In this document: one piece after another, positions 537 to 36,500 of the stretch
Position numbering within the stretch: the first letter of the stretch is position 1
Layout of the letters: each line of letters begins with the position of its first letter
Assembly (NCBI GenBank): GCA_951799405.1
Contig: OX637333.1
Span: forward strand, 17,049,960-17,113,959
Reading direction: 5' to 3'
Length of the DNA stretch: 64,000 bases
Origin: Agapetus fuscipes
Taxonomy: Eukaryota > Arthropoda > Insecta > Trichoptera > Glossosomatidae
Notes under the pieces: generated by a model
The model's input: the letters and a program-made list of their open reading frames with translations, nothing else
What the model was told of the DNA's origin: nothing
Databases searched by the model: none
Made by a program: the position numbers and the translations under genes

Positions 537-3500
537 CTGAAACAAATTAATGAAATTCATGATAAAATTTAATTTATATAAAATGTCATCTCCATGTGGA
601 ACGTGATAATTTTCTATTAGCGTGTTTTAAATAAAACAACGCTAGTTTGATTCCCGTCAGGCTACTTGCCGAAAACTGTAACTGGTTCAAGAGATGTCGT
701 CGGGTCTATAATCTAAGTTGCAAGGATATATTCATTCAAAGCTCTCAGATGTATGCTCACAAACAAACACGTGTAGTTCGCGATTACAAATGCTGATTGT
801 GTACTTACAAATAAAATCCAAACCTCAAATGAACATAAGCCCTGCAACTCTTGCCGACATTCCCTGAAACAGGGGTGACATTGGCAAAGTGAACCATTTT
901 TTACAGTATGGGTAGTCAGCCTCATACCAACCTATAAGTCAAGGAATATGAGCAATAAATAACATTTAAGCATAAAAAAAAACAACAAAACTTTAAAATT
1001 AATCTATACAAAAAAAAAGTAAAAATTTTCTTATGCAAAAAATGTAGCAAACTAATAAACCAACATTACAAATCAGCATTGCAGATTAGCCGCCACTTCT
1101 TCCTGTCCTTGCATACTTCTTTCATTTCATCCAGAGTCATAACCTTTTTCATACAAGCTCTCCTTTTATTATGACTCTGGATATCCCATTCACTCGCTAT
1201 TTTGAAAATTTGGTCCATCCATACCTTTCTCGGTCTTCATCTTCCACGACATCCATCAATTCTTGCAGCATATACTTTCTTCGTCAGTCTTTCCTCGTTT
1301 TTATGATGAATTAAGTAAATCCGATACTAATATTGATGACAACTCTACCAATGTTAATGCAGCTTGGCAGACCCTCAAGAATGTGATCGACCATTCTATT
1401 GAGAGACATGTACCTATGACCCGTAAAAAAGCTTCACATAACATAAATAAACCGTGGATAGACTCGGACATACTTGCATTTAGAGATGAAAAAGCCAAAC
1501 TATGGCATAAGTACAGACTGGAAAACACAGATGAAGCTTACAATAAGTATAGGAAAGCTAACAACAAAATTGTTGGTATGGTTCGCAAAGCTAGGAAACA
1601 ATACGAAAAAGGGGTCCCAAGTCTTTCATACTTTTTTTTTATTAGACAAACAAACAGTTATACATGTAATATATGTGAATAACAACATAGTTATAATAAT
1701 TCAAAAACCAGCAAAGTTTGCAAACATAATGTAGTGTAAGCTTAATTAAGAAGGAGAAACAAGAAAAATTTAGAAAGTAATATGAGAAAAATGAAGAAGA
1801 AAAAAAAAGAGAAAACGACTATCAACTTAATCATCACGTAAAGAGAGGAAAAGGAATGGGGGGAAGAATAGGAAAGGGAAGGAAAAGGAAAAGCATCCAA
1901 CGATTAAACCCCATGAGACCCCGCTGTCATAAGGGATATTTTTACAGCTTCATTGAATTGCAGTATGGTGGTGTTAAACAGATCAATGTTGACAAAAAAA
2001 ATTTTTTTAAGCAAGTCGGGTGAATCAATTGTATTGTTCACTATTTTATGTAGAAATTTCATGTCAGTAACGGTACATCTATTTTCTAAGGTCATTAATT
2101 GATGATATTTGGCAGGTAGTTTGCTCCCCCAGTTCTTGTTTACCGTATACGCCAATCTTGTCAAATATGACTTTTCCATGCATTTGTCTTAAGGGTATAC
2201 GAGACTTTAAGAAGGTTATTAATATCGGGACTAAAGAACCTCTTTAATTGTTTTATGAAACTAAAATCATAATTTTATGTCAAATAACTTTGACTGATCA
2301 TGGTCAGATGTCGTTGCTGAAGTATATAACTTATGTTCTTACTCAAGCATTACGTTTCATAAAAAAATAATGTAAATTTTCTTGACGCTCTTAGCGAGCG
2401 TTTTAGTTTTTATAAACTTGTGTTTAAACGCTATTGTTGAGTATTTACGACTGCATGGCTCATACAGTAAGTTATGCATCAAAAATTGCAAAAAGAAATG
2501 ATTTGACGTAAGTATTACTCTATGTTTATTTATTTATTATGCGGTATAAAAACGGCGCTCTTTTGTCATGTATTAAATTTTAATTAAATAAATTATCCTC
2601 ATATATATATATTGTAACGAAATACACTGGTAGATGTTTATTGGTGTACGTGTGTTTTGAGAGAATGTTCTGGCCCAGACGATTGTAATTGTAAGGTGTG
2701 TATGTAGGTAGGAAATGGACTCTTCATGAAATAAATATGTCCAGAATCGTCTATACAACTGTGGTAGTGGAAGTTTCTAGGGCAGGCTGGAATGGCCCCT
2801 AGGTTCCGCTATAAGAAGGGCGACAATGGGCTGAAGCGAGTCAGTCTTCGAAGCACTCACACAGAGGAGTATCTAGTTACTAGGGCGACCAATATGGTGT
2901 AAAATAAATGTAATCTGTACGAAATAAATAAGTGTGTTAAAATAAATCTGTTAGAATAAGTCTGTTAAAAATAAATCTATTGTAAGAAAGTCTGTGTAAA
3001 TAAACTGTATGGCTAACTTGTGTTAAACTTGTGTTTTAATTAAAAGAACCCAGGAAAAACGTAACAATGGTGTCGGTGTGAAGTTTAAAACCAAGTACCA
3101 AGTAAAAACTGTGCTTGAGACTTTTGAAAAATATATGTGGACAACATAATAAAAACTGATGAATAAAAAAAAAAAAAGTTTTAAATAAAACTGGTTAAAC
3201 TTGAATTAAAAACGATCGTGTGGTTACCCGCTAAAAATTTGATTGAAGTGTGCATAGATAACGTGTTAATAATATTGTGATAGTGTTAGTAAATACTCAT
3301 TAGCCGATCTGGCGAAGCAAAGTAAATAATCATTATCTAATATCATTATTTGAAATTTAAAAATAAATATTAAAAGGCGGTACCTACCTACCGTCAGTAT
3401 AATTAGATAAATTATTATTTTGCTAAAGTACGTATTTAAAAATAACTTCATATATAAAACTCATCACCCGTATTAAATAAATTTGCAAATATTTTTGTTT

Positions 3501-6500
3501 TGAAGTTTGTTAAAATAAAAAATGGCTAAGGTGAACATCAAGGACCTCAAAGTCTATGAGCTTAAGAATGAGCTTCTGGAGAGGGACCTGGAGACCTCAG
3601 GAGGAAAGGCTACCTTACAGGCACGCCTCATGGAGGCCTTGGAACAGTCAGGCGAAGACCCGGCATATTTTGTCATGGCGTCTGGAGGAGACCGCGAGCG
3701 AGCCGTGGAAGAGTTTAAAACAAAGATGGCTGCCAACTTCAAGAGCTTGAGGGAAGACCTAGCTGGTTGGAAGGAGGAGATGGCTAAAAACCTAGCCTTA
3801 AAAATGTCGGTGGACACTGATAGTGTAAAATTAAGTGATAATCAGGATGACAAAAAGGCCGATATGTCAACTGAGGATGAGTCATCTCAGAAGTTGGGGA
3901 AGGGAGACCTGAAGGCCAAAAACAACGGCCAGCTCAAGGCTGAGGACTCAGCTGACAGCAAAGATGACAAAGATGATGTCAAGTCGGCTGAAAACGGCAA
4001 GAGTGACTCGGCCGAGGTGAAGGCTGACAAGGATGCGAAGGAGGAGACGGACGCCAAGGAGGAGGATGAGGACGCCAAGGACAAGAAGGGCAAGGCCAAG
4101 AAGGCCAACAGTGTGAAGAAGAAGCCCGCGCCCAAGAAGAAGGCGGAGGAGGCCGTGGAGGAGGCTCCCAAGAAGAAGAAGGCCGTGGAGCCGCCGGTGC
4201 CCGTGCCCGCGGGCCGGGGCATCCCCATCGACCACATCCCCGACGTGGAGGTGGCCATCTCCAGGTTCAAGATGGAGGACCTCAAGTTCCTGTACAATCA
4301 ATTGTGCCGCACGAACCTCATCAAGCGCAACAAAAAGAAGTTCAAGGGCTACGAGTTTGAGAAGGACACGCCTGAGCACAAGGCCAAGCTGGAGGAGGTG
4401 CAGAAGCTGGAGCCCAAGCAGCTGCGGACGCTGTGCAAGAAGCTGGGCTTGGACAAGAGGGGCGCGCCCACGGAGCTGGCCAGCAGGGTGGTGGGCTTCC
4501 TGCTGCTGCCAAAGCAGGCCTCCTCGCACGCCAGGGGGCTGATGAAGGAGAGGCCGGTGACTGACCGCGGCGAGGCCACGGGAGGCAGGCCCAGAAGGTC
4601 CGCTGCTGCTATTGTCAAGAGAGGTTACTCTAACGAGGAGTATGAAACAGATCCGGAAACCAAAGTGCGGGGACCCAAAGTCAGCAGGGATGATTTAGGG
4701 GATTCAGATGGCTCGTACAACCCGAGTGGCTCCGGACAGGAGGCGGACTCTGACTTTGACCCGTCAGTGAGGGAGGGGGGCGCTCCCTCCCGCAGGCGCC
4801 GCGCCCCCGCCCGCAGGGGCTCAGCCAAGCAGAGCAAGCAGAAGGGACGACCCAAGCATGGCGCGGCAGGAAGCCACTCAGCGAGTCAGAGGACGAGAGC
4901 GAGAGTGAGAACTTCGCTTCCGAGCAGGAGAGCGGCTCCGACGACCAAGGATTCTGATCCTTTGACGCCGGCGAGCAAGCGGGGCCTAGGAGCGGTGGCC
5001 GCCCGGGGACGCAAAGCGGTGCCCCCAGCCAAGGAAAGGCGCCCATGCCGGCCGCCAAGAGGAAAGCACCCCCCCCCACACCAGCCAGCAATGACGGGCA
5101 AAACCCTAAGGGGAAAATTCCGTGGAACGTCATTTTTCCTGACCACTGGATGCAACTGTGGGTCAAACTGCCCGTACCTTCTTAAAGAAAAGACTGTTCC
5201 GGGGCGGAACAGTCTAAGGGGGGGATAATGTAACGAAATACACTGGTAGATGTTTATTGGTGTACGTGTGTTTTGAGAGAATGTTCTGGCCCAGACGATT
5301 GTAATTGTAAGGTGTGTATGTAGGTAGGAAATGGACTCTTCATGAAATAAATATGTCCAGAATCGTCTATACAACTGTGGTAGTGGAAGTTTCTAGGGCA
5401 GGCTGGAATGGCCCCTAGGTTCCGCTATAAGAAGGGCGACAATGGGCTGAAGCGAGTCAGTCTTCGAAGCACTCACACAGAGGAGTATCTAGTTACTAGG
5501 GCGACCAATATGGTGTAAAATAAATGTAATCTGTACGAAATAAATAAGTGTGTTAAAATAAATCTGTTAGAATAAGTCTGTTAAAAATAAATCTATTGTA
5601 AGAAAGTCTGTGTAAATAAACTGTATGGCTAACTTGTGTTAAACTTGTGTTTTAATTAAAAGAACCCAGGAAAAACGTAACAATATATAATGATTTACAA
5701 AACTATTTTGTGTTTTGATTACCCTGCTTTAAAATAATGCTTTGAAATATGAGTAACATTTATTGTTGTACAATATCTGTACATAAATTCATATTTTTAA
5801 GCAATATAACATTTTTAACACATTGTTTGCGGGAAACTAGTTAACTCGTCATACACCTCTTTATCGTAACGTGCGGGAGACGTGTAAACTCGTTTCGTCG
5901 CGCCTAGCGGTAGGGCGCGGGAAACTTGTAAAAACGTGCAGTCAAACGGGTGTGGGGCCATGCAATACCTACCCTCAGCGGTCCCCGATCTGTCTACCTG
6001 CCGATACAATGAGTATGAGACGGGACAAAAAATAATAACTGTAAAAATAAACAAACAGAATATTGAAATTTTAAACAAAGGATTTTGTTTTTGCACTTTC
6101 GTTCGTCTCTCCAGTAACTTCTATATCCTGCTTTCGTTAGGACGTTTTATATTCGTAGACGTTTATACATTATTAGGTTATAGTTTTTTTTATAATATGT
6201 GTGAAAATTTTCAAAATAATATTGATATTCTGTATGAATAAAATGATGTTGATTGTGAAATAGTGTTTTTTCTATGATTCCCAAGAAAGTAGAATGTTTT
6301 TGTACACAAAAAAACAAAAATATAGATATTGTGTTAAATAAATAAACGGAGACGTATTTTTAAAGTAAAAAACTAAAAGTTTCATTGAAAAATATCAAAA
6401 AGATCGTAAGATATAAATGTTTTACGAAAAGCCTAATGTTGGCGCGAAAATTTCAAAAAACACCCGCTCTACGCCGCCATCTGGCGAAAAAATTCCCGCA

Positions 6501-9500
6501 TACATAGTGTTAAGAGAAGAAATGAAACGAGAAATTATTGTGTGTGCAACTCCTTGCTTGGCGTATGACTTCTTAGTAGAAAGAGAAGAAATATCTCTTG
6601 TGTCTCACAGCCCACACTGCCGAGAGTACAGAAAAGTGTTCACACAATGTTATAATGACAAAATTCAATAATGGTTATGTTTTGCACTTACTGTGTACGA
6701 AGTTGTGTACTAAATCTATTTTTTAGTCAATTTACCGTTTCATTGCACTGATTGTATTATGTGAGACATTTAGCAAGTGAATGTTTTAGAGCATACATAA
6801 GTATACCTACTACCTATAACACTACGTATAAAACGCCTAAAACTCAATGGCATATTTAACACGATAGCCTCTTAAGGATAGTAAATACATATAAAAAAAT
6901 TAACTATGCTTTAGGGACTGCACTTAAAAAAAAAAAATCGACCAGTGTAATTCATTACAATAAAAAATAAACAATGTCAAGCGCCCTTGCAGTGACAGCA
7001 GTCACAAAACGGCGCTATAAAAATCATCATCATCAAACAATGATATTATTTGTAAGGTTTAAGCTGGGGAATTATAGTTGTTTTACATATTTACAAATTA
7101 TCCTTTATTATATTGTCCTTCGTCGTCGTCTTTTGCTTGGACTTTCAAATTTTCAATTTCCAAATTGTCTCGCCGCGAGGATCGAACCCGCGTCTCCCGG
7201 GCGGGGTCGCCGAGAGAACCGGTGGTTTAGCTGATTACGCTAAACCGCCTGCTCGGCAGTGTGAGAAAATAAAATCTATTTAAGCGATACAAACCTCATA
7301 TTTTATGTATAGAAATTGTAATTATATAGAGGCGCTATCCTATTTTTAAACAAATATTTTTTACGTACAAAACTATGTACATAAATTAGAACATAGAGGC
7401 GCTAAACATTAACTCAATTCATAACAAATATAATTTTTGACAAAAAAAAACTGATGAATGAAATTCTGGTTCTGAAAAATGAGATTCATGAAATTTAACG
7501 CATGCGAAAATTACAACATAAGAATCTCAAATAAGTTGCAAAGATATAGTACATTCAGGATTCTTATTACACGCATTCCCACAAGCAGACACGTGTACTG
7601 TCGCGCTTACACATGCTGTATGTGCACTAAAAAAACATAGTATTTCCGATATATTTTTGATTGCATTAATGGAACGATATCTCTATTTTAAATCAATATT
7701 TTTAAACACTGTCGATGTAAACATTATGTAGATCTATAACCATTTACATTGCACGATATTGTGAAAAATTAATAGTGTAATGTGTGGGGAAAACGCGAAA
7801 ATAACAGTAAACGATAAATATGCCTGGAAAAACGTTCTGAATATGTAAGACAATTTTCTCACTACCCCGCAAGGGCGGCGTGGGCTAGCGGTAATGTCCA
7901 CGTCTTTGATGCAGAAGGACCCGGGTTCGGGCCTGGAGATGAAATGTTTGTTTTTTTTTTTTTTTTTTTTTTTTTCGTCCCTTTTTTTTAATAAATTTGA
8001 AAGGAATGCAATTCATCGATCTATTTTGCGTTCTCTAATAAATATTTAAAAATTCGAGCGGGGACGCAAACCAGTTTTTAGAAATACAGATCATGGCAGA
8101 AGAAGATTTTACATATAATTTTTCAACAAAATTGTCAGTAATTATTTTTTCTCATCAAATATTTTCAAATAAGTACAAGCTTTTTGAGAGATATACTACG
8201 TAATACCTATATAATCTATTATCTATTTTGCACAATACATTACATTTGACATTCATATTAAATGCATTCCCACAAGTAGACAGGTATAAGTTCGCGTTTA
8301 CACATGCCCCATGATGACTTAGAACATAATAACCTTATATCAAATTAACATTCGCCCTGCAACTCTTGCCGAACTTCCCTCAAAAATAGGTGAAATTTGC
8401 AAAGTGAACCATTTTTTACAGTATGGGTGGTCAGCTGCATACTAACCTATAAGTCAAGGAAATTATTTAGTTTAGGTCTATATAATTTAAGTTGCAAAGA
8501 TATGTTAAATTGAGATTCATATTAAATGCATTCCCACAAGCAGACCCGTTCCTATAAGTTCACGCCTGCAAATGCTAAATATGGACTATCTGTGGACGTC
8601 TTTTACTAAAACTGCATGTTTTTATTTTACATGTTTTTTTAAATATTACGAATTTTAACGTGAGTAAACTATGCGCAATATACACATTCTCCAAATGTTA
8701 AGGGGTTGGGCTGCGTAGCAGCCAGGGGCGTAGCCCCTAGTAAATTATAATTACCTCACTGTTAAATAATTCATCTTTTCAGATACCAGACGAACCCTTA
8801 TAGAAAAACTTACACAATTTTCAATGTTTAGTTGGTGACATAGCCAACGTCTTCAAGAGGCACCCGTTCTGTACAAAGACTCAGGATGAACTGAGATGAA
8901 CATCGAAAATAATGTAACTTCTCCCATGACGGGTTGTCTAATATCTGAAAAGTTTAATTACTAACAGTAAAGTAATGAGGTCCGCAAGTGAATTGGCATA
9001 GACAATATTGTGTCATCACTCGGCCAGGTTGCTAGGGAGAAAGCAAACAAACATTTTGTTATTGGTTGCTAAAGGTGTTAGTTCACGAGACAAGGTTTGC
9101 TCCCCGATAAAAATGTTCCAAATTCAATAATGTGCCGAGCTCATTATAATTTGTAAATGTCTATAATTGAAGTTGCAACGACATATTACATTTAAGATTC
9201 ATATTCAATGCATTCCCATATGCAGATACATATTAGTTTGCGTCTACACATGCGACATATGGACTTACAACATAAAAACCCAATCTCAAATGAACATAGG
9301 CCCTGCAACTCTTGCCTCCCTTCCCTGAAACAGGGGTGACATTTTTTGACTCACTTCTGAAGTTTATTCCTGGAATCAGGCTGCGGTCTCCTCATCACTT
9401 CCTTCCCCTGCTTCATGAGAAGTATAGTGGGAAGCTGGCGGCTCAGAGGACTGTCCAGGATACCATACTTGGCTGCTGCCTCAGGATATCTAGGGAAGCA

Positions 9501-12500
9501 ACACAAATAATTGAATAGGAGAAAAACTAACACTGATGCGTTTTAATGGCTGTAGTACCTACAGTGGTTAATGCTTATGGTTTGTAACTGTAATGTAGTG
9601 GGTTGGAGTGAGTGAATATAGTGAGGAATGAGGATGTGAAAGTTAAGGTACAAAAGAATGTGATGAGATGGTTTGGACATGTAGAAAGAATGGATGATGA
9701 AAAACTTACAAAGTAACAATTTATGAAATGTTTCAGAGGAAACTTTGTAGAACTCCATTTAAAATTTAAATTTTTTTTAAAATAAACAGCATTTATTTTT
9801 GTCTTGTCTTGTCTTGTATCTTGCCGCCATTCCTCTGGGGGTGCCCGGTACCTCCACACAAGTGCCTCCACTTGACTCTGTCCTTGCATACTTCTTTCAT
9901 CTCATCTAATTTCATCACTCTTTTCTTGCATGCTCTTCTCTTGTTTCCACTCTGTAAATTCCATTCATTCGCAATCTCACTTATCTGATCAATCCTTTCT
10001 TTTCTAGGTCTTCCCCTTCCACGCTTACCTATTATAAATCTATATCTACTAGAGGCTCCGCCCCTGGCTGTTACGCAGCCCAACCCCTTAACATTTAGGC
10101 AACGGGAACTTTGCAGCATGTCCGTGTTAAAATTCGTATAATTATTAGAAATGGATAAAAAAATAATATGCTTGTTTGCAAAATTTGCGAATACCTACTA
10201 CCATTTAAAAGAAACTTTTACACATCCCTATCATCTAATTTATTCTCATTTGACCAAATAGGTGAGATTTTAAAAAAATGGAACCTTCAGTGTGCGAATA
10301 AGAGAACAGTATGTATGAAGAAACTGATGAATGTTGAAGAGATGAAAAAGGTATGCAAGGACCGAGAAAAGTGGAGACGCATCTGCGGAGGTACCGGCCA
10401 CCCCTAGTGGAACGGCGGCAGGATACAGTAACAGCTCATTACTATGGTCACTCACGAACCGGGGAAATCTCGCCCCGTAAAAAGTCAAATATTGCCAGAA
10501 TGAAATTTGACGGTACACGGTACAATATTTACACCCACCTTGATGTAACGAAGTGAAATCCTGGACGTTGAATGAAAGTGAAATTAGAAAATTCCATATT
10601 ATTGAAATGGACTATGTTTTAAGAGAAGAGTATGTATGAAAAATATGATGAATATTGAAGAGATAAAAGAATAATGCATGTCTGCTTGTGGGAATGCATT
10701 TAATATGAATCTCAAATGATACATAATACAGTAGAGCCTTGATAATCCGAACTAGCAAAAACTAACCCCTGTTCGGACTCATGAAGCGTTCGGATTATAG
10801 TATGTAAGGAGAAAAAAAAACATTTTTATTCTTAAAATAGTGTTTAATTATATACATAGTTTAAGAGGTACAGTAAGCAACGAGCTGGGCTTTACATATT
10901 GACCTTGGGAACGCTCTTATTACAAGCAGCGTAAGGACTACAGTCGTAATGCAAATAAAAAGCCCGGCTCGTTGCTTACCGTACATTTACATAATAATTA
11001 GGTACCATAAAATACGTAAGGTGTAAATTGTCTATTTAGTCATAAACTGATCTATTTTAGATTTTGTAGGGTTTGTGTATTCATTTTTTTTTTTTCATTT
11101 TCGATCTATTTTAGTTTGGCGAGTCCTGTTGATGGACCAGAAAAAAGCTTTGTCCCTCAAGTTACGTAGCATCATCTTTTCCGATAAGGACAGGTCATTT
11201 TCTTCAGCCCACTCCAAGCAAGTGTTCAAAGATGATATGGCTTGTGAATGAGTAATTTTCTTGACATTTGAAGCAAAATAATCTTCAGCTAAAGACTCGT
11301 CATTCTCTTGCGTTATTTGGGTTATGATCTCATCATCAGTTATAGGATCTGTACAATTCTCCTCTTCACTCATGGACAAGAAAGTGGAAATGGTTTCTTC
11401 TGTATAACCACGATTACGTAAAAGACTGAGCGGGAGATCGTCTTCTACGTCGAAGTCATCATTTTCTTCTGATCTATCTTCTGTTGAATTTATTTTTTCA
11501 GGCCAAAGAGGCTTCCAAGATTTTTCGATAAGAGACGATGATACATGATCCCAACATTGCGCTAGCGAAAAAATGGCGTCTTTAATTGTGACGCTTTTTA
11601 TAACATCATGCAAGGTTAAAGCCTCATCGGCTTCTTGCTGCACGAACATTTGAATCAGGAGTTTCTTTTTGTAATTTATCTTGACATTTTGGATTACGTT
11701 TTGATCCATAGGTTGGATCAAAGGCGTACAATTTGGAGGCATGTACAGTACAGAGAAGTTGCCGTCTTCTGTTGTCAAATCTTCAGCATTTGGATGTCTA
11801 AGAGTAGCAATGCTTTTTGTGGCAGTCCCATTTTTTTTAAATGGCGTTTGACTTCAGGAACAAAATGGCCTCTAAACCACTCGAGAAAAATATCTCTGGT
11901 TACCCAAGCACGCCTCTGCCCTTCATAATGCACTGGTAATTTTACAGATCCAAAAGATCTTGGCTTTTTTGCCTTCCCCACAACTAGCAATGGTAATTTG
12001 TGATTCCCTGTAGAGTTTGCGCAAGGCATAAAAGTTATTCGCTCTTTAGACACTTTCGACCCAGGAGCGCTAGTTTGAGCAGAAGAGGCTAAAGTTTTGT
12101 CCGGCAGAACCTTCCAAAACAATCCTGATTCGTCGGCATTGTAAATTTGTTCAGGGCAAAGGTTCTTTTCTTTTATCTCGTTTAGGAATTTTTCTTGGAA
12201 TGGTTGAACAGCTTCCGTATTGCTAGAGACTTTCTCACCTGACACTTTCAGCTGACGTATGCCATGACGTTTTTTAAAATTATCAAGCCATCCTCTACTT
12301 GCAGAAAAATCCGAACCTGTTAGTTTTTTATGGAAGAATCTCGCTTTTTCCATTAAGACCTCACCAGACAATGGAATGTGGCGTCGTCTTTGTTCTAAAA
12401 ACCATGTGAACAGTGCTTCTTCTAGCACTGGATTCTCTGGAAATTTTAGAGTTTTTCTGAACCCTGGTCCTTTCTCAGTTTTAGCTATAAAAGATCTCAA

Positions 12501-15500
12501 TTTTTGCTCATTTTTCTTGAGGTCTGTAATTGTTGATTTTCCAACGCCATACTTACAAGCAAGAGAAGTTGCCGACACTCCGTCCTTTAAACTGTCTAGT
12601 ATGGTGCACTTTTCGGCTATAGTCAAAGTTTTATGTTTGCGTTTTGGTGTTGGAACCATCTTTATAACCTCAAAAAACACGCCGCGCACAAGTACAGAGC
12701 AGAAAAACGTGGAATGGACGCGCAACGTGGCAGTCGTAACTGCAGACTAATTAATAAACAACATAGCAGCGAGGCGAAGGCGAGGAAGTGGGGTGGGGTA
12801 TGCAGTTCGGATTATAGCGACGTTCGGATTAGCCTGAGTACGGATTATCGAGGCTCTACTGTATCTTTGTAACTTAGATTTAGACATGTGGCATGTGCAA
12901 GCCTGTCTGCTTGTGAGAGTGCATAGGTTTAATGTGAATCCCCAATGTAACATATCTTTGCAACTTAGAATAGATTAGATTAGGTTTTTGAATTTTTGAT
13001 TGTTCATAGTTTTTTTTAAAGATATTGTTTTACAGAATAATTGTTAGTTTAATTCATTATGTCTTGTGTTCTATTTTTTAATTAATAAATATTTGCTTCA
13101 AAATAGGATAGCGCCTCTTTGTTATGAAAACTAAGTAACTTTTCCCAGTACCTACTTTATATGTTGTTAATTTCTTCCCAACTTCATGTCTCCCGGTAGC
13201 TCAACACGCTGGGCGTTTCGTTACTGAACCGTTTAGATTTTAGAAGACGCATGTGGGAATGCATTTAATATAAAAAAAATAATAATAATAATACGAATCT
13301 CAAATGATACATACATCGGCATGTGCAAGCGCGAGAGTGCATATAATGTGAATCCCCAATGTTACATATCTTGGCAACTTAGATTAAAGTTGGGTTTTTG
13401 AATTTTTGATTTGTATTTTGATTTTTCATATTTTTCATTTATTAATAAATATTTGCTTAAAAATAGGATAGCGCCTCTATGTTAAAAAAATGGTATGGTA
13501 ACTTTTCGCAGTTGCTTATAAGTTGTTAACTTCTCATTGATGTCATGTCTCACGGTAGCTTACGCGCGTAGGCGCATCTTTTTTTGTCCGTTTAGATTTT
13601 GAAAGACGTAGGTTCGAATCCCGATCTGATCGGGTGCTTTGCTTTTTATTTTTTCAGATGTAAAAGTTGTTATGCGGTTATTTACTTTATTTAGATTTTT
13701 AATTGTTTTTTTTACAGATTATTGTAAGTATTGTTTTACAAAATAATGGTAAAATGTAATTTGTTTATATTTTTGCTTGAAAATAGGATAGCGCCCCTAT
13801 ATTATAAAAATATTAGGTTTGAGTCCATGCTTAATTTTATACTTTACATAAACAATTTTTTTTTAACTCTCTCAGGGAAGCGGCGTGGCCTAGTTGGTCA
13901 AGACGCTATGCCTTGCGGCGTGTCTGCGCTCAGGTCCCTGGTTCGAATCCCGGTCGGTCGTTTTGGTTATTTGAAGACGGTGAAGGGTATTATATATATA
14001 TATAATCTAAGTTGCAAGGATATATTCATTTAAAGCTCTCAGATGTATGCCCACAAACCAACATGTGTAGTTCGCGCTTACAAATGCTGAATGCGTACTT
14101 ACAAATAAAATCCAAACTTCAAATGAACATAAGCCCCACAACTTTTGCCGACCTTCCCTGAAACAGGGGTGACATTGGCAAAATGAACCATTTTTTACAG
14201 TATGGGTGGTCAGCCTCATACCAACCTACAAGTCAAGGAATATGAATAATAAATTACATTTAAATATAAAAAAAGAACAATACCTTAAAAAGAAATCTAT
14301 TCCAAAAAAGTAAACAATTTCCAATGCAAAAAATGTAGCAAATTAATACACCATCATTAGAAATCTACATTGCAGATTACATTCCCTTTATACACTCTTT
14401 TTGTCAGTCGGTCTTCATTCATCCTTTCAATATGTCAGAACCATCGCATCACACTTCTTTGAACTTTCACTTTCACGCTTTCTTCTACTCCGCATTCATT
14501 CAGAACCCATTCGTTTCTCACTCTATCTTTCAGTGTTTTTCCTGTCATACTTCTCAAATGAGCCATTTCTATGGTGCATACCTTATTTACTTCTCTTTCA
14601 TTCACCGTCCATGACTCGCTTCCATACATCAGGGTCGGCAACAATTTACAATTGTGTACCGCCATTCTAATTTTTTTTGGTAACCTTTTATTCTTCGCTA
14701 TTCTACCAAACGCTCCAATCACGCATCTTCCTTTGCTGGCACGCTTCTCTAATTCTTTTGTCATCTTACCATTCGCCTCAAACTTACTTCCTAAATAGTC
14801 AAACTCATGCACTACTACAACTTTTATTCCATTCAAATCAATTGTAAGTTCCTCACATACTTCATTCCTGTCCAAAACTAATATGTTTGTCTTATTCACA
14901 TTCACTTTCAAGCTATTCTTACAAAGCGCATCATTCAGTTTGGTTAACATCGCTTGGAGTTCCTCCGCCGAGTCAGCTAAAACTATAGCATCATCAGCAT
15001 AAAGAAGTACTCCAACTCTTGTTTCACCCACTTTCACTCCGCTCTCTGATATTCCAGCTTCTTTTATGCAACTGTCCATGATTATATTAAACAACCGTGG
15101 ACTCATCACGCAGCCTTGCCCCACTCCCTTATATACATCAAACCAGTCACTGTACCTCACATCCACTCTTACACATGCCGAACTATTTTCATAGATGGCA
15201 CGTATCACATTCAGAAGATTGTCATTCACAGAGTACTTCCTGAGAACATTCTACAACATACATCTGTCCACCGAGTCAAAGGCCCTCTCGAGATCTACGA
15301 AGGCTGCGTAGACCACCCTCCCCACAGCCAGATGTTTTTCAACAATCTGTCTGAGAGTAAAGATTTGGTCCACACAACCTCGTCCTGGCATAAAACCAGA
15401 TTGAATATCAGAGACCCTGTGATTGGTGGCCATTCTCACTTTTTTTATGACAATTTTGCATAAGACTTTCCCAGGTATACTAAGGAGACTAATGGGCCTG

Positions 15501-18500
15501 AAGTTACGGCAGTCTTTCTTGTCCCCTTTACCCTTGTAAATAGGGACAATGACCGCCTTTCTCCAGTCCATCGGTACTACCCTGTCTTTCATACACATCT
15601 TGCATAATTCAAACATCCACTCTACCACACATTCTCCTCCTGCCTTTAACATCTCGACATTCAATCCATCCGTACTTGCCGCCTTCCCATTCTTCAGCTT
15701 TTTTATGCTTGCTTTTATTTCCTCTTTCAAAATATCCTCATTACTTTCATTTGTAGGGTCACATTCATATAAATTTATTTCGCCCTGTCCTAATATTTCT
15801 TCAAAGTATTCTTTCCATCTGTTACATACATCGTCTTCATCCCACAGCAAGACTCCCTGCGCATTCTTTATGCCCGGAGTTGTTGCTCCCACACTTTCGT
15901 TATTATTCCGAACCCAACTCCAGAACATTTTTTTGTTGGTGTGGAAGTCCTGCTGTGCCCTTTCATTATTTTTCTTCTCTAATTCCATCTTACTTTCATA
16001 CACAAGCTTTTTAGTATTAATTTTTGCCCTTTTATAAATCATTTCCAAATTCAAATTACCTTTATCTTTCAACCATTTCTTTTTATCTCCATCGTTCCAC
16101 CAGGCATCACCTTTTTTCTTGCCAATATTTGTTTCTCCGCATAACATTCTAGCAGATTCGATCAGTTCATTCTTCATCATATGCCACACATCCTTCATCT
16201 TTAATTTTTTGTAGTTCATCCATATTTAATCTTTTGGCAATCTCACATTGATATTCATCTTGCACATTGTCATCGTTCAAATTTTCCACTTTTATTCTTT
16301 TCATTCTTAACAAAAAAAAATTCTGTCCTTTTTTACAATCCCCTACCATTATTCTCGCGCATAGCAAATAGTGGTCTGTGCTGAGTTCAGCTCCACGGTA
16401 CACTCTTGCATCTCTCACACATCTTCTCATTCTTTTATCCACGCATATATAATCAATAATTGTTCGATTGCCTGCCCTATTTTGCCACGTATAGAGATGC
16501 AAGTCTTGGTGTTTAAACCAGGTGTTTGTTGCAAAAAGTCTGTGTTCTATACATGGGTATCGCCGTCGAAATTTGTACCTTTTGTCTTGTGCGTGTGTCG
16601 CCTAATGATTTTCACTTTTTTCATAAAAACTGATGATGTCTACTGAATTCTAGATTTATTAGAGTAAAGTATTTGAAAAGCGTATCGATACAAAAAAAAT
16701 CTGCAAAAAGCTTGAAGTGGCGATGTAATTAAAAAATAAAACAAAATCGCCTTTTTTCCATTCTCATACAAATTTTACATATCCGCAATCCGTTTTTGAC
16801 CCTTTGATGGCTAGATACAATAAAAAATAGTCAAATTTTTAAAAAGTTGAGTATTTTTTCATATACCTTAGTAACGTATCTTTTGTTTTATGTACTAGCC
16901 ACAATAATATTTATTTATTTATACACGAAATATTAGTTGCTAATGGTTGTCTCCATTTTTGGTTCTGAAATTTTTCTTTTAGTGTGTTACCATTTTCATT
17001 GAAACTGACAAAAATCTTGCATCCCTAAGGCCCGGTATTTTGAAGTATCGTAAAGTTAACTAAAATGCAATTTTAGTTAAATCATCATAATATTTCACTC
17101 ACCGAATTTCGGCAGTAAATATTTAGTAACTTTAACTTTTGATTTTCAAGATGGTGGCGCTTCACTGACAGCAGCTGTTCTTTTTTAATGTAAGAAAACA
17201 TCAAATTTGTCGCAAACTGAACATTTTTTGTGTCGTTTTCTAGCTTAATGAAGGTTAGGCATATGATTTTTTATGAATAGTTGTTTGTTTTAAAGCTTTT
17301 GAATGGCATTTTCAATTTGTCCAAGATTTGGGGGCGTGGCCTCATACTTCGGTAATGTTCGGTTTTAGTTAACTCGAGATTGAGTATTTTGAATAAAAGT
17401 TCAAGTAATAGTTAACTAAAATATTACTACAGTTCAATATATCGGGCCTTAGTATTTTTTCGCCTATGGTAACTCTTTGATGCAGTATGGAAAACACTAA
17501 AAAACTGGTTCGCTACCTTCATTTTCTTCTGAGAGGGTCTATGTCTCAGCCGTAAACTTGTCATGATTGTTTTGAGTGGGATTTAGCTTGGAATTATTAG
17601 GGTAAATATCGGAATCTGTTGTCAATTGTGTATTGCCTACTTAAAGACATTAGTGCTGCTTAAGATTGTGTGTTTTTATAGTCGCTGGTATTATTAGTTT
17701 TCAAATAAATCAATTTTAGGATCATGTCAGGCGTGTTTTTTATTGACGAACGCCACCGTAACTGTTACCGCGCTACGTCACATTTGTGAGATTAAGGCAT
17801 ATTAATATTGGTTAAAAAATTATACTTACTTAAAATAAAAAAAACGCAACTAAGCTACACATATAGCGTAACTTCTTGCCGCGTTATCCCCGAAGGGGTC
17901 GTAACACTGAAAATCATTAGGCGACACACGCACAAGACAAAAGGTACAAATTTCGGCGGCGATACCCACATGTGTTGACAAGCTTTCGTCCATTATTATT
18001 GATCATTCCTCTACCACTCGGTCCCACAACCTTTCCGCAATCATCTCGTTTCATACCAACCCATCCGTTCATATCTCCTAATAGGATAATACGTTCATTC
18101 TCTTCTTTCATTCTTAGTACATTATTTACACTCTCCCAAAATTCATCTCTCTCTTCTCTGCTATCAGATTCTACTGGAGCATAACAAGCTACCATTAGGA
18201 TTTTCACACGTCCTAATCTCATTGTTACCAACAGAATCCTAGGACATATTCTTTCATAATAACTTAAACATATTTTAGCCCGTTCGCTCAAAATTACTCC
18301 CACGCCTGGTCTCTTATATCCATCCTTAATTCCACTCCAAATAAAATACTCCTCATTCTTCAATACCTTCTCTCCATCCCCGATCATTTTTATTTCAGTC
18401 ATGCACATCACTTGTATTCTTCTCTTTTCCATAATATCAGAAATTTCATTCTCTTTACAGTATTTTTTTTTTTAATAGTTATTGAATAGTTCAGATATTT

Positions 18501-21500: not shown

Positions 21501-24500
21501 AAGATCTCAGGGACGCCGAAGGACATCGTGGCTGAAGAACTTGCGACAGTGGTTCGGCGGAAGCACCAAGTCCCTATTTCGAGCCGCAGCATCAAAAGTC
21601 AAAATAGCTATGATGATCGCCGATCTTCGTTAGAAGTGGCACAGGAAGAAGAAGAAGAAGAAGAAAGTGCACGACCTAAGCAAACTTACGCTTTTTTGCA
21701 TTTCAATTATTATTGTGACACTTAACGACATCTAGTGGCGAGTAGTGGTACTATGTATTGTACTATGTACTATCTATTTCAGCTACCCGCTAACAGGTGG
21801 CATTACCAAGAGTAATAAAAACCAAGAGTAACTATATTAAATTTAAAGAGAAACGCACTCAACTCAAGTCTGGCATTGCTCATGCTCATAAGTCCTATCT
21901 AGAGAATATTCAGTCTGGAGTCGGAAATGGCTCAAGGGAATTTTGGAGGTATGTCTCCTCACTGAAAAAAGACAGCACTGTGAAGTATACATTGGCAGAT
22001 GGGGATGAGATCACGACTGATCCTCAATTAGTCTGCGAAAGATTCTCAGACTATTTTCAATCTGTCTACAGTTCCCTGGTCCCTGAGTTAGATGTGGAAG
22101 TCATCCTTAATAACTCGCCTCTCTGTAATACCAACAGTATTGGAATTGAGCATTTTACGTTGGAAGAGGTACAAACCTGTCTGCTCAACATTAACCCAAA
22201 CAAAGCAGCGGGCCCTGATAAAATTCCACCAGGCGTAATAGCAGCCTTATCCAATACTGTAGCTGAACCATTAAGGTTTATTTTAAATCTGTGTGTTGAA
22301 CAATGTGAATTTCCTCAATTTTGGAAGTTAACAAGAGTCATTCCCATACACAAAGCAGATGCAAAAACAGATGTCCGAAACTATAGACCTATCTCTATCT
22401 TATCGACATTTGCGAAGATCTTTGAAAGTTTAATTCATAAAAACTTACTGATTAACATTAAATCACGTATTACCATTCATCAACATGGCTTCCTACCAAA
22501 GAGGTCTACAATTTCCAATCTTCTCACATTAAGTGCAGAAATAGCCGAAAATCTGGATTCTCAGCACCAGACTGATGTGGTATATACGGACTTTTCTAAA
22601 GCATTCGACAGGGTAGACCATGACGTCCTACTCAAGAAAATGCACGTATTTGGATTAAGTAAATCTCTTCTCTTACTTTTCGCATCATATTTAAGAAATA
22701 GACAACAATATGTTGATATTAATGGCTATACATCATTGACAGTTCAACCACTTTCTGGAGTCCCGCAAGGATCCAATTTGGGCCCACTGGCTTTCCTCAT
22801 ATTTGTCAATGACGTTGTTGGCATCATAAAACATAGTTCGTGCCTATTATACGCAGATGACTTGAAGATCTATACAAAGATTATAGACACTCAATGCTGC
22901 GTAAAATTACAGGAGGACTTGAACGCATTAGCAGTTTGGGCTGAGCAAAACAAACTCTTCTTACGCAAAAAAAAAAACGCAACTAAGCTACACATATAGT
23001 GTAACTTCTTGCCGCGTTATCCCCGAAGGGGTCGCATGTGGCGAGTTGAACCTATTTATTTTCACAGGTAAGGGGGCCGGCCTTACGCCAACCACTTCAG
23101 TTGAAGAGGAGGTTTCCCAGCTCCCGAGAGTGCTGGTACTCATTTCTTGTGAAGGCTGAGTAAACCTTGCCGGTATTTTTATTTTGGGGTTTGAAATAAA
23201 CACCGAAACGGGAAATCATTTCTGACAACCTCGGTGGGATTCGAACCCGAGCTTTCGGCATGGAATGCAAGCACTCTACCACCTGAGCTATCGACCGGAC
23301 TATTTTACTTCTACTATGGACTATTCGGACTATGGACTTCTTAAATTTTAAGAAATGCGTTATCATGTCCTTCACTAAATCTCATAATCCCACTTTTCAT
23401 GAGTATAGTATAGGTGGGCAAATACTAACTCGTGTGACCTCATTTAGGGATCTGGGAGTTGTCTTTGATCCCGGACTGAATTTCTCAGACTATATGACGC
23501 AGTTGACGACCGAATGCTATCGGCTTCTGGGTTTTGTTATTAGACTCTGTAAACAGTTTACAGAGCCCAGGGCGATGGCGGATGTCTTCAGCTGCGTCGT
23601 TCGATCTAAATTAGAGTACGCTGTTGAGGTGTGGACACCTCATCAGCGGAAGTACATTAATATGTTAGAACAGCTCCAGAAGAAGTTCCTGAGGTACCTC
23701 CTCATGAGAACGCAGGGAAACTACCCTTAGTTCATGCACCATGAGGACCTGCTTCGGGAAACTGGCTTCAGGAGCTTAGAAACTAGGCGCAACGGGACCC
23801 TGATGGTGCTCACTTATAAAGTCATCAATGGTTTAATAGACAGTCCCACCCTGTTGGAGGGTTTCAGGTTGTTTGTACCAAATTACTATAATCAGGGGCG
23901 AGGTCATGATCTTTTTCATGTACCAATGAGCCGCACCGATGTGTTGGCACAGCATCCTTTAACTCGGAGTGTCAAACTCATTAACGAGTCAAAAATAGAT
24001 ATATTTCAATATAATGTAGACACCTTCAAAAGTATGGTAAAAGAGTTCCCCCCAGCTTGTTGATGGCTGTGAGGGTGCACTGTAATTAGGGCAACCTGTT
24101 GTGCACCAAAAAAAAAAAAAAAAAATTAGTCGTAATTAAATATTTGGAATTACAGCGTTGGTTCGTGAAAGTTCTGGTTGTGGCTAGTGTATTCCGATCA
24201 CTTCGAGATGGCAGTAATTGCATATAAAAAGGCTAGCGGTGCAACCGCGAGTCAGTCTGCGTAGGAAAGGCGGAGGAAGTGAAACTGTCTGTTGTGAAAT
24301 AAAGTAACACACGTGCATAAAAGTATTTTGATTTGACTTATTGTTTTTATGTGTGATTTGTTAGTACGGAAAAGAAGCGAAAAATTGACTGTGAATGCAG
24401 AACGTTCCAAGATAAATGGAACTTTCAGTATTTTGTGATTGAGTATTATGATTAAGGTTGTCTGTAAGATATCGCCATGTGCGATAAGACCGCCCATTGT

Positions 24501-33500: not shown

Positions 33501-36500
33501 TATAGATTTATTTTTAAGGTTTTGTTGTTTTCTTATACTTAAATGTTATTTATTACTCGTATTCCTTGACTTATAGGTTGGTATGAGGCTGACCACCCAT
33601 ACTGTAAAAAATGGTTCACTTTGCCAATGTCACCCCTGTTTCAGGGAATGTCGGCAAGAGTTGCAGGGCCTATGTTCATTTGAGGTTTGGATTTTATTTG
33701 TAAGTACACAATCAGCATTTGTAAGCGCGAACTACACGTGTTTGTTTGTGGGCAGACATCTGAGAGCTTTGAATGAATATATCCTTGCAACTTAGATTAT
33801 AGATTATATAGTACAGTAATAAGGCGTTATGTTTAAATTGTAATGAAACCATAGCTGTTCTCAAAGAATATAACATTAAACGACACTATGAATCGAAACA
33901 TCTTCAAATTTACTCCAAGTATACAGGAAGTTTGCGGATGGAAAAATTTGAAGCTTTGAAGCGCAGACTCAAATCGCAGCAATCTTTGTTTACCAAAGCA
34001 AATACTGAACAAGAGTCTGCAACTCGCGCCAGCTTTCGTGTGCCTCTTGAAATGGGAAAACGTGGCAAACCATTCACCGATGGAGAAATGATAAAAGAAT
34101 GCTTGATTGCAGTAGCCGAAGAAATATGCCCCGAAAAGGTAAATTTATTTAAAAATGTCAGTTTGTCAGCAAACACCGTGGCTCGGAGGGTGCAAGACAT
34201 CGCAGAAAAAATATCATCTCAACTGTCTGACAAAAATGGACATCATGAGTGGTTTTCTCTAGCATTGGATGAGTCAACGGATGTGTCAGATACTGCTCAG
34301 GTGCTGATTTTTATTCGCGGAGTAGATAAAAGCTATGAAGTGTATGAAGAACTTCTTGATATTGATAGTATTCACGGCACGACAACTGGGGCAGATATTT
34401 TTAAGGGAGTTGAAAATGCTATTAATAAAAAGAACCTTCGATGGAAATTTTTTAAATCTTTTACAACTGATGGAGGCAAAAATATGTGTGGTAAAAATAA
34501 AGGAGTGGTTGCACTTGCGTCAAAGGCTGTAGAAAATGATGGTGGTTCAAAACCATTAGTCTTACAATGTATCATTCATCAACAGTCCTTGTGCGGAAAA
34601 TGTTTGGATATGTCTGAAGTTCTAAAACCAGTCATATCAGTTGTTAACTTCATCAGATCCACTGGGCTGAATCACCGACAATTCCGCGAGTTTATTCAAG
34701 AGATTGGAGAAAATGACTTACCACATCATACTGCCGTACGCTGGCTTAGTTGCGGAAAAGTCCTTAACCCTTAATTAGTCGCATGGGGTCAAAGCAATTT
34801 CGCATAAAAAAATGAAGTATTTGCTGAAGGCACTCAGGATGAACTCAAAACTTCATCCTCAGTCGTCGTGCAGAGAGGATGTTCTCCTGAAGACGTCGGC
34901 TACGTCGCTGACGAAACGTCGAGAATTATGTAAGTTCTCTCTAAACGGTTTGTTAAATATCCGATTTAAATTAAGTTTTGAAATTTGTTCAGTTTTAAAA
35001 ATTAATATACTTAATTGTCAAAATATTTTATTAACTTTAATATTTAATAAATAATACAAAATATTCCTACAATTTCGGGTCATCGGTGACCCCATGCGAG
35101 TAGTTATGTAATTTTCTTCATGCGAGTAATTAAGGCTTAAGCGCTTTTTTGAACTTCGAGCATAGATCGAAATTTTTTTTAATGAGAAGCAGCGCCCTTT
35201 TGCGGATTTAGAAAATAGTGAATGGATGTGGAAGTTAGCATTCTATGTCGATTTGACAAATCATATGAACGAACTGAATTTGAGATTGCAAGGAGAAAAT
35301 CAGCTTCTCCCTGATTTATACACCAATATCAAATCCTTCAGGCAGAAAATAATACATTTCAATCGCAATTACATAAAAAATGTTTCTCACATTTTAAAAC
35401 ATGTGAAATATTCAGCCACACTACAGAGACTGAATTTCCCGTCCATTTTGCAATCGAAACTTTGAGTGCTTTGAAGATAAATTTTGATACTCGTTTCTCA
35501 GATTTTGATGTCATTGCGAATGAAATTAATCTTAAAAAATTAAAATTAAAAATTAAATAAACAAATTGTATTAGGTTACGGGGCGAGTAAAATTTAATAA
35601 TGTATGACCGGTTTCGGAAACAATGTTTCCATCGCGCCCCTTAACCTAATACAATTTGTTTATTTTATTTTTTATTTTAATTTTTTAAAAATGAAAGGTT
35701 ACAAAGTGAATGCCTCATCAATTAATGAAATTAATCTTTTTCAAAATCCTTTTGATTCTGTCATTGAAACCCTGGCTCCGGAAGTCCAAATGGAAATAAT
35801 TGATTTACAGTGCAGTGATATGATTAAGAACAAATTTCAAAATTCATCTTTGCTGGAATTTTATAAGAGTCTTCCACTGGAACAATTTGATAATTTTCAT
35901 AAATTTGCTCGTGGGTTTTCTGTTTTTGGTACTACTTACTTGTGTGAGAAAACGTTTTCCAAGATGAAGTATACAAAGAATGTTTACAATATTTTTTTAA
36001 ATATATTTACCCTTACCACTGGTGTAAAAGCGACAAAAAATGGAGAAGACTATTATATTTGGGTGATAAAAGCATTCACATAAACAACATACCTAGTCAA
36101 AAAAAGTTTTAAGAGTGCTTTTTACACAAACAGTAGTATAGGGAAAATGCTCTATAACAACAAGGATCGTTCGGATCACATGGAGGGTGGAGGCGTGTAC
36201 CGCATATCATGCAACCAATGCGAATCAGTATATGTAGGACAGACCTCCAGGTCTATTCATACAAGAATAAATGAGCACAAAAGAGCTTTTAGGGGTCTAT
36301 CCGGGTACTCTGAGATGGCGGATCACTGTATCGAAAACGACCATTCGTTTGATATAACAGGAGTAAAGATCCTTCACTCGGGGTGCAAGGGTAGACAACT
36401 AATGGCTCTTGAAACTCTAGAAATTCAAAAACATTTGAGCCATGTTGTTAATAAACAAATACCTACTCCTTCTCCTCTTCTAACAAAGCCCACCTTTAAA

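Follow-up and report, generated by a model that had tools for sequence, protein, structure and literature searches.

A non-autonomous LTR retrotransposon family carrying an intronless segment of the DEK gene in Agapetus fuscipes

LTR retrotransposons are known to capture cellular genes, with cases described for maize Bs1, for NLR genes in pepper and for LTR-mediated retroposition in metazoans (PMC8616336, PMC13317346, PMC5664825, PMC5408686, PMC8232201). Bs1 is an LTR element whose gag is joined to pieces of three cellular genes (PMC8616336, PMC13317346). In pepper, 86-123 NLRs per genome are reported to lie inside LTR elements, about 72% of which have neither gag nor pol and so moved in trans (PMC5664825). 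LTR-mediated retroposition has been reported for Drosophila, mosquito, and other metazoans (Tan et al. 2016; PMC5408686, PMC8232201). Cellular genes within LTR elements are a proposed step toward retrovirus-like transduction and new chimeric genes. Here, we describe an element from a 64,000-nucleotide stretch of the Agapetus fuscipes genome (hereafter, the window) that appears to have taken up most of the spliced DEK message of its host. Among the papers listed in a literature search, followed at the level of titles and abstract openings, none concerned a DEK-bearing LTR element.

Structure of the element and its DEK segment

A complete non-autonomous LTR element with LTRs, target duplication, primer-binding site (PBS), and polypurine tract (PPT) occupies positions 2613-5682 of the window. 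The preliminary description had reported matching LTRs, which is borne out by a base-by-base alignment of the two 454-bp copies (2613-3066 and 5229-5682, plus strand, TGTAACG...CGTAACA) with 0 mismatches from end to end; the termini are TG..CA, and ATAT stands on either side (2609-2612 and 5683-5686). It had also pointed to a PPT and a putative primer site, and both are present as direct readings that we compared with relatives. The putative PBS, TGGTGTCGGTGTGAAG (3068-3083, plus strand), starts one base past the LTR, and its alignment with the SAP-gag loci L076 and L083 (TGGTGTCGGTGTG against TGGTGTCAGGTGTG) has one base missing; the PPT (about 5214-5228, plus strand) includes the ORF stop. 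The stretch at 3067-3521 reads as a 5' untranslated leader.

The ORF list gives a 568-aa plus-strand frame at 3522-5228, which antisense ORFs of up to 193 aa also overlie, and the Gag-DEK-Pol-tail protein predicted from it may be translated. Its N-terminal Gag piece (3522-3796) is recognized by identity to the relative L072 and by a SAP domain at residues 6-41 (Pfam PF02037, E 1.1e-8). The DEK segment follows at 3797-5084, and residues 170-347 match PDB chains named "Protein DEK" (E 1e-12), which places the SAP/pseudo-SAP core of DEK within the ORF. Pfam detected no capsid or zinc knuckle in the 568-aa product, and the DEK C-terminal domain PF08766 is absent from its matches. The GC content of the DEK part is 60.7%, against 37.2% for the whole window, in keeping with the earlier remark that the ORF stands out. 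The element had further been said to lack pol, which is correct for the enzymes and most of pol, as the Ty3/Gypsy order of protease, reverse transcriptase (RT), RNase H, and integrase was not found; however, a short Pol tail, read in the native frame of Pol, is retained at 5110-5225 (...KTVPGRNSLRGG). This tail is similar to the 3' end of L073 pol (76% DNA identity over 134 columns, or 71% over 153 columns under other settings), and the last residues of the ORF are in frame with the C-terminal Pol tail of L073. The L073 tail has a weak zf-CCCH match below the Pfam cutoff, and two finger-like residues of the relative are altered in the element. The element therefore counts as a non-autonomous derivative, one that would operate in trans in the Gypsy manner.

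An intron-bearing DEK gene is present in the same genome, with blocks at C11:960423-950038 on the minus strand. Nine of its exon blocks are collinear with the insert at 92.1-96.9% DNA identity and the introns are absent, so it is a spliced DEK mRNA that was most probably captured. The segment starts 7 nt upstream of the DEK ATG (3804) and ends with the ninth matched exon block. Compared with the host gene, it has deletions at about 4295 (12 nt), at 4860, and in acidic repeats. Host exon C11:946574-946729, which encodes the DEK C-terminal domain, lies downstream of the captured part and was left out of the element. An intronless cellular mRNA sits between LTRs while an intron-bearing source gene is present, as expected of an LTR-transduced cellular gene of the Bs1 type. 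The DEK cores of the element copies group with the DEK of this host, apart from six other DEK proteins; these relatives, retrieved with ORF residues 228-415, all carry precomputed PF08766 (6/6). The two claims of the preliminary description that depend on this comparison, a SAP gag start joined to intronless DEK and the capture of a cellular gene, both withstood it.

Copy number, age, and probable single origin

The fusion copies were counted by their gag-DEK junction, which occurs at 293 genomic places at ≤3 mismatches, compared with none for the reversed pattern used as a control. A protein search with the DEK core gave 309 candidate places, and the best 150, by a scoring that favors intact copies, are stop-free in every case (150/150) and run across a host intron position. 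For closer study, the first 16 loci (L036-L051) were picked from among those whose LTRs best match the window, and the next 20 (L052-L071) were exact-junction places on contigs C1-C5 minus the copy in the window. The gag start is retained, with an ORF of 548-677 aa, in 17 of 18 rows (the window and 17 of the first batch), and the ORF reaches at least 554 aa in 16 of the 20 junction-sampled copies.

LTRs and target duplications were tabulated for 38 rows, eight of which were unparsed (six of those eight were later measured by alignment). In the 30 paired rows, 24 LTR pairs have 0 mismatches and 28 have a perfect 4-bp target duplication; the remaining two rows are halves of a single three-LTR array whose outer flanks match. 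Eighteen LTR pairs were measurable among the 20 junction-sampled copies, with no substitutions in 14, one in three, and two in one, and with gaps in 3 of the 18. Because most measured LTR pairs are identical, the amplification is young; the chimera has spread recently to about 300 genomic places. All 17 aligned ORFs have the same junction and the same C-terminal frame shift, and these common features and lesions support the view that one capture founded the family.

Four copies keep the full 348-nt core. Three of these are the copies nearest the host exon, at 97, 96, and 95% identity, against 95% for the bulk, and the full-core copy on C35 barely exceeds the bulk. The most host-like copies are C1:18071832, C35:97477, and C12:9122369, and the full-core copy on C12 has the exact gag-DEK junction. 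The fourth full-core copy (C20:11045837) has the same junction as the others and lies outside the 40 places scored for host identity, so the graded series consists of three copies. At 14 of the 60 sites where the copy majority departs from the host, some copies retain the host base.

An autonomous relative and the question of a helper

A SAP-Gag Ty3/Gypsy relative, L072/L073 (C1:14892700-14899700), has an open gag of 470 codons followed by protease, RT, RNase H, and integrase, and it is the one autonomous copy (n = 1) that we read through pol. Where the element has DEK, this relative encodes a coiled coil, a capsid, and a zinc knuckle. Window positions 3405-3696 are 92.8% identical to L072 over 293 columns, the gag stretch up to 3796 is weakly similar (74%, 69 columns), and the final 117 nt of the leader are 93% identical, with the remainder of the leader having no strong match there. 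The two elements are therefore alike in a Gag start of about 93% identity, a related Pol tail and PPT, and the LTR end CGTAACA; in contrast, L072/L073 has full gag and pol, no DEK, and another LTR body. One fusion copy, L041, has a longer gag piece with about three mismatches to L072 over some 340 columns, a likeness that would follow if the two RNAs were packaged together.

The preliminary description had argued for recent movement in trans by a partner element. Identical LTRs and perfect target duplications agree with the recent movement; on the other hand, neither the stretches read upstream of 17 SAP-gag loci nor L072 revealed an autonomous element that shares the LTR. Likewise, the full-length relatives it anticipated exist in that L072/L073 has the same SAP-Gag start, but none has the same LTR: the LTR ends of 16 of the 17 SAP-gag loci, and of L072, differ from those of the element. 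L090, the only SAP-gag locus with the DEK-type LTR, was considered as a helper and rejected when it proved to be a DEK fusion. Because the element lacks capsid and enzymes, it would have to be moved in trans by a partner, a role that suits the SAP-Gag Ty3/Gypsy elements present in this genome.

Route of capture, alternatives, and known systems

These findings favor, with a probability of about 0.88, the single capture of a spliced DEK mRNA by template switching, followed by recent spread in trans to ∼300 places. A SAP-Gag Ty3/Gypsy-type element would have packaged the spliced cellular mRNA, and its reverse transcriptase would have jumped into the DEK template and then back out. The resulting cDNA would have retained the parts that we see in the element (LTRs, PBS, leader, the 5' end of gag, the 3' end of pol, and PPT), with about 1.3 kb of DEK exons in place of the remainder of gag and pol. 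At the switch points, about 3-4 shared bases are arguable, in a comparison from which the native gag/pol of the exact parent is missing. As the chimera is unable to make capsid or enzymes, it would have to move with the proteins of an autonomous SAP-Gag relative; after the single founding capture indicated by the common junction and lesions, it would thus have reached its some 300 places.

Is the DEK part kept because the element benefits from the fusion protein, for instance through access to chromatin or protection from silencing? We consider this unlikely. The open ORFs described above speak for it, as do the gap runs within gag-DEK, 7 of 13 of which are multiples of three (start-touching runs excluded), and the diversity per site, which is lower in in-frame DEK (0.009) than in gag (0.015), the leader (0.029), and the shifted C-terminal part (0.026), the last two possibly inflated by repeats. 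Nonsense changes in the DEK part are also missing (0 observed against 2.4 expected), although the probability of this is 0.09. However, no amino-acid constraint on the DEK part was detected among the 37 of 38 rows kept for these counts (L041, whose gag aligns poorly, was dropped): there are 62 nonsynonymous and 26 synonymous changes, against a neutral expectation of 60.8 and 26.9, and the changes common to two or more copies (22:5) are unconstrained as well. The gag part has 16 nonsynonymous changes, 11 synonymous changes, and one apparent stop, an artifact of a two-base change, against 16.0, 6.3, and 1.0 expected. Fixed differences between host and element are constrained (17:24), but the host branch may be the source of that constraint. 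Three copies with shortened ORFs (L036, which is without the gag start, L055, and L061) nevertheless have identical LTRs and perfect target duplications, and their deletions could postdate insertion. Nothing clearly indicates a need for the DEK protein; the changes fit the neutral expectation. It is somewhat more doubtful still that the insert caused the success of the family, whether as a shield (silencing of the element would also strike host DEK) or by Gag-DEK steering particles or cDNA to chromatin. If the shield idea is true, some 300 DEK-carrying copies tie small-RNA silencing of the element to host DEK.

Equally unlikely as a useful fusion is a capture of DEK in some other species, with horizontal transfer bringing the element into this genome. 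In favor of this, silent sites have diverged strongly from the host gene (dS 0.126, dN 0.030), on a host map from which the blast row 4115-4164 was excluded as a repeat match, and the copies differ little from one another, with no constraint on their changes; of 13 "element-derived" residues, one (4293) is an artifact of the 12-nt deletion. Against this, copies are up to 97% identical to the exon of this host and group with its DEK, pointing to a close ancestor as the source of the capture, and no Gag-DEK fusion from other species was found in the protein database, where mobile ORFs often go unannotated.

Less probable again is a nested origin, in which LINE-type machinery placed a processed retrocopy of DEK inside an LTR element already present, with amplification of the composite afterward. 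The intronless insert and the RT ORFs (untyped) elsewhere in the window are compatible with such an event; however, in the window element no poly(A) is seen at the DEK 3' end, which is an exon edge running straight into the Pol tail, a by-eye reading reveals no obvious target duplication around the insert, and nested insertion alone leaves the loss of most of gag and pol unexplained. Finally, DEK also has SAP-like folds and the Gag proteins of the SAP-Gag family start with a SAP domain, but the reading of the DEK-like part as a native Gag or accessory ORF is rejected as extremely improbable, given its 92-97% DNA identity to exons of one intron-bearing host gene that continues into the DEK C-terminal domain and the coiled coil, capsid, and zinc knuckle at this place in the autonomous relative.

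One assembled genome holds the source gene, the exon junctions, the junction sequence, the descendants, and possible helper elements. The family therefore permits direct tests of the capture mechanism, of whether a host gene can benefit a parasite, and of the effect of hundreds of gene-like copies on silencing of the parent gene. As described in the sources cited above, Bs1 likewise joins cellular sequence and gag in one chimeric gene, but it is a plant element with three genes, whereas the DEK element has one animal gene, an in-frame Pol tail, and about 300 copies. The pepper NLRs are also cellular genes retroduplicated within LTR elements; they represent a plant gene family rather than a single amplified capture with a Gag-host-Pol fusion ORF. 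Metazoan LTR-mediated retroposition resembles the route proposed here in that template switching within particles brings a copy of spliced mRNA into an LTR element; the cases as described there are retrocopies, without mention of one chimera amplified to a high-copy family. Set beside these plant cases and animal retrocopies, the DEK chimera is an animal case that turned into a successful young family, and its unusual part is a high-copy animal family founded on a single captured gene.

Element structure and source gene

The element spans window 2613-5682 (3,070 bp) and is bounded by two 454-bp LTRs that are identical, as the preliminary description had judged them by eye, with ATAT on each side. 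The putative PBS-like stretch directly after the 5′ LTR and the polypurine tract just before the 3′ LTR, both named in that description, can be read in the sequence. The sole long sense ORF (window 3522-5228, 568 aa) has a SAP domain within its first 91 residues (Pfam). Against the structure database, residues 170-347 hit chains labelled Protein DEK (E 1e-12). The final residues correspond, in the same frame, to the C-terminal Pol tail of a related element. A Pfam search of the ORF gave no match to capsid, nucleocapsid, protease, RT, RNase H, or integrase; the earlier claim that pol is missing holds for the enzyme domains but not for this retained tail. The GC content, said to set the ORF apart from its surroundings, is 60.7% in the DEK part versus 37.2% in the window. 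Nearby are a 21-nt motif present three times at 44-bp spacing (window 5829-5937) and an inverted 33-bp stretch (6930-6962) that is 85% complementary to the LTR start. Elsewhere, the window carries a Tc5/pogo-type DNA transposon remnant (11098-12746, minus strand; CENP-B_N, HTH_Tnp_Tc5, and DDE_1 in two overlapping frames), reverse-transcriptase ORFs (RVT_1) at 14438-16225 (minus, split between two frames) and 21794-22996 (plus), and an ORF at 33812-34771 (plus) that matches a Spin-doc zinc finger and, below Pfam's cut-off, DUF4371.

The preliminary description had proposed seeking an intact DEK gene in the same genome and comparing exon junctions, and such a gene is present. In the 618-Mb assembly (148 contigs), a DEK C-terminal domain query has a single match, at C11:946574-946729, and within C11:943000-982999 nine element blocks are collinear with the host gene (C11:960423-950038, minus strand) at 92.1-96.9% identity. 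With gap-bridging settings eight of the nine reach 92-96%, and the block at window 3971-4143 falls to 77% owing to additional acidic-repeat codons in the host; one more alignment row, the tenth (window 4115-4164, 75%), is a repeat match. The blocks lie 0.17-4.1 kb apart in the host and abut in the element. The captured stretch starts 7 nt upstream of the DEK ATG and stops at the end of the ninth block, or 3-4 nt beyond; later host exons, including that of the DEK C-terminal domain, are absent from the element.

In a DEK tree, the element copies cluster with host DEK on a long branch, separate from six other DEK proteins. Six DEK-type relatives were found in the protein database, and the five named species among them (Eumeta, Scirpophaga, Phthorimaea, Pieris, and Danaus) are all Lepidoptera. 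Two lepidopteran DEK proteins, P0001 and P0002, share just 49-58% identity with the core exons of the host gene (C11:946574-960423; loci L032 and L033) but 96-100% with its C-terminal domain (51 aa); the low core identity may stem from rapid evolution of the core or from a host that is phylogenetically distant. By these comparisons, the host probably belongs to Lepidoptera or near that order.

A probable single capture and a young family

The copies appear to descend in graded fashion from a single capture. The element lacks 12 nt of the host sequence near window 4295, carries a second deletion at 4860, flanked by short repeats, and has frame-changing indels downstream, because of which the C-terminal DEK insert is largely read in a shifted frame. 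All 17 aligned ORFs have both the junction and the shifted C-terminus in common. Four copies, among the best 150 of 309 candidates, keep the full 348-nt core and so, judged by length, lack the 12-nt deletion; two of these, C12:9122369 (exact junction 0.4 kb upstream) and C20:11045837, also have the gag-DEK junction. When the 327-nt host exon was used as a DNA query, the best matches after the gene itself were three full-core copies (97, 96, and 95%), with the bulk at 95%; 40 of 414 candidates were scored, and C20:11045837 fell outside those 40. The majority of copies differs from the host at 60 sites, 46 fixed and 14 with the host base in some copies. In four loci (L041, L046, L047, and L048) the DEK C-terminal part is tandemly duplicated inside the element, with the ORF open at 651-677 aa.

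A count of the fusion, also proposed at the outset, gave 293 places matching the 38-base gag-DEK junction pattern with at most 3 mismatches, 147 of them forward and 146 reverse; the same pattern read backwards has none. In a DEK-core protein search, all of the best 150 of 309 candidates match without a stop, in frames of 209-684 codons; best-first scoring favours intact places, and the count is irrespective of flanking LTRs. Thirty of 38 rows (the window plus 36 loci, one counted twice) are parsable as LTR pairs, and 28 of the 30 have perfect 4-bp target duplications. The remaining two rows are the two halves of L040, a tandem array (C26:9182935-9189454) with three LTRs, two complete internal regions, and matching outer flanks (CTAT). 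Of the 30 pairs, 24 have LTRs without a difference, four differ at 1 site, one at 2, and one at 4. Among 20 copies sampled by their junction, 18 pairs are measurable, with 0 substitutions in 14, 1 in three, and 2 in one; gaps occur in three of the 18, two of them of 16-17 positions. Because the pairs are mostly identical, most insertions read are young, which upholds the recent movement originally suggested. Four LTRs without a listed partner (L005, L011, L012, and L014) look like solo LTRs, since no internal sequence was found within 1,500 nt on either side.

Candidate helpers

A genome search with a SAP-Gag protein query (P0003) gave 1,738 candidates, of which 116 were scored. The resulting 146 matching stretches almost all lie in open frames, of 307-1,896 codons, and one contains a stop. 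One such locus, L072/L073 (C1:14892700-14899700), was read through pol: in its gag, SAP and zinc-knuckle domains are accompanied by a capsid-type match slightly under Pfam's cut-off, its pol has protease, RT, RNase H, and integrase domains, and its LTR pair is 99.6% alike over a 256-bp part. Judged by sequence likeness, autonomous SAP-Gag elements of this kind are the favoured candidate helpers, because the gag start is ∼93% identical to that of the DEK element, the Pol tail and PPT are 71-76% identical over 134-153 columns, the terminal LTR bases CGTAACA are common to both, two related loci carry the DEK element's PBS minus one base within the first 14, and the gag piece of one DEK copy, L041, is longer and differs from L072 at ∼3 positions in some 340 columns. 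This last piece is as recombination between co-packaged RNAs would be expected to give. A search for full-length relatives with the same LTR and gag had been suggested. Among 17 SAP-gag loci and L072, no autonomous element with the DEK element's LTR was found: L072 and 16 of the loci have a different LTR end, and the remaining locus, L090, which does have a DEK-type LTR, is itself a DEK fusion.

Selection on the DEK part and known systems

The window's in-frame DEK differs from the host at dN 0.030 and dS 0.126 (351 codons). Changes in the DEK part across 37 rows number 62 nonsynonymous, 26 synonymous, and 0 nonsense, where the observed mutation spectrum predicts 60.8, 26.9, and 2.4; the differences fixed between the host and all copies, 17 N to 24 S, are unlike this polymorphism (Fisher p = 0.002). 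Of the 23 amino-acid differences between the majority state and the host, 13 are assigned to the element (one of these being an artefact of alignment) and 1 to the host, and 9 are unclear. The simplest reading is constraint on the host branch and drift of the element's DEK. Against drift stand reading frames that are open in most copies, a diversity per site that is lower in the DEK part (0.009) than in gag (0.015) or the leader (0.029), and 7 of 13 gap runs in multiples of three. Of the 20 copies sampled by junction, 16 have an ORF of at least 554 aa, two have shorter ones (391 and 273 aa), and two yielded no gag start; youth alone may explain the open frames. Among 114 changes at window 3522-4861 in the 37 rows, 36 are G to A on the sense strand and 16 are C to T.

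Published cases include gag joined to three cellular gene fragments in maize Bs1 (PMC8616336, PMC13317346) and NLR genes inside mostly non-autonomous LTR elements in pepper (PMC5664825); in animals, LTR elements are described as causing retroposition by template switching (PMC8232201, PMC5408686). The capture mechanism is therefore already known. No comparable case was found in the literature searched, which does not prove that none exists. Whereas Bs1 carries three gene fragments, the DEK element carries one chromatin gene. What is new is an animal family of ∼300 mostly young copies founded on that one captured gene, and an ORF that unites a Gag start, a host protein, and a Pol tail.
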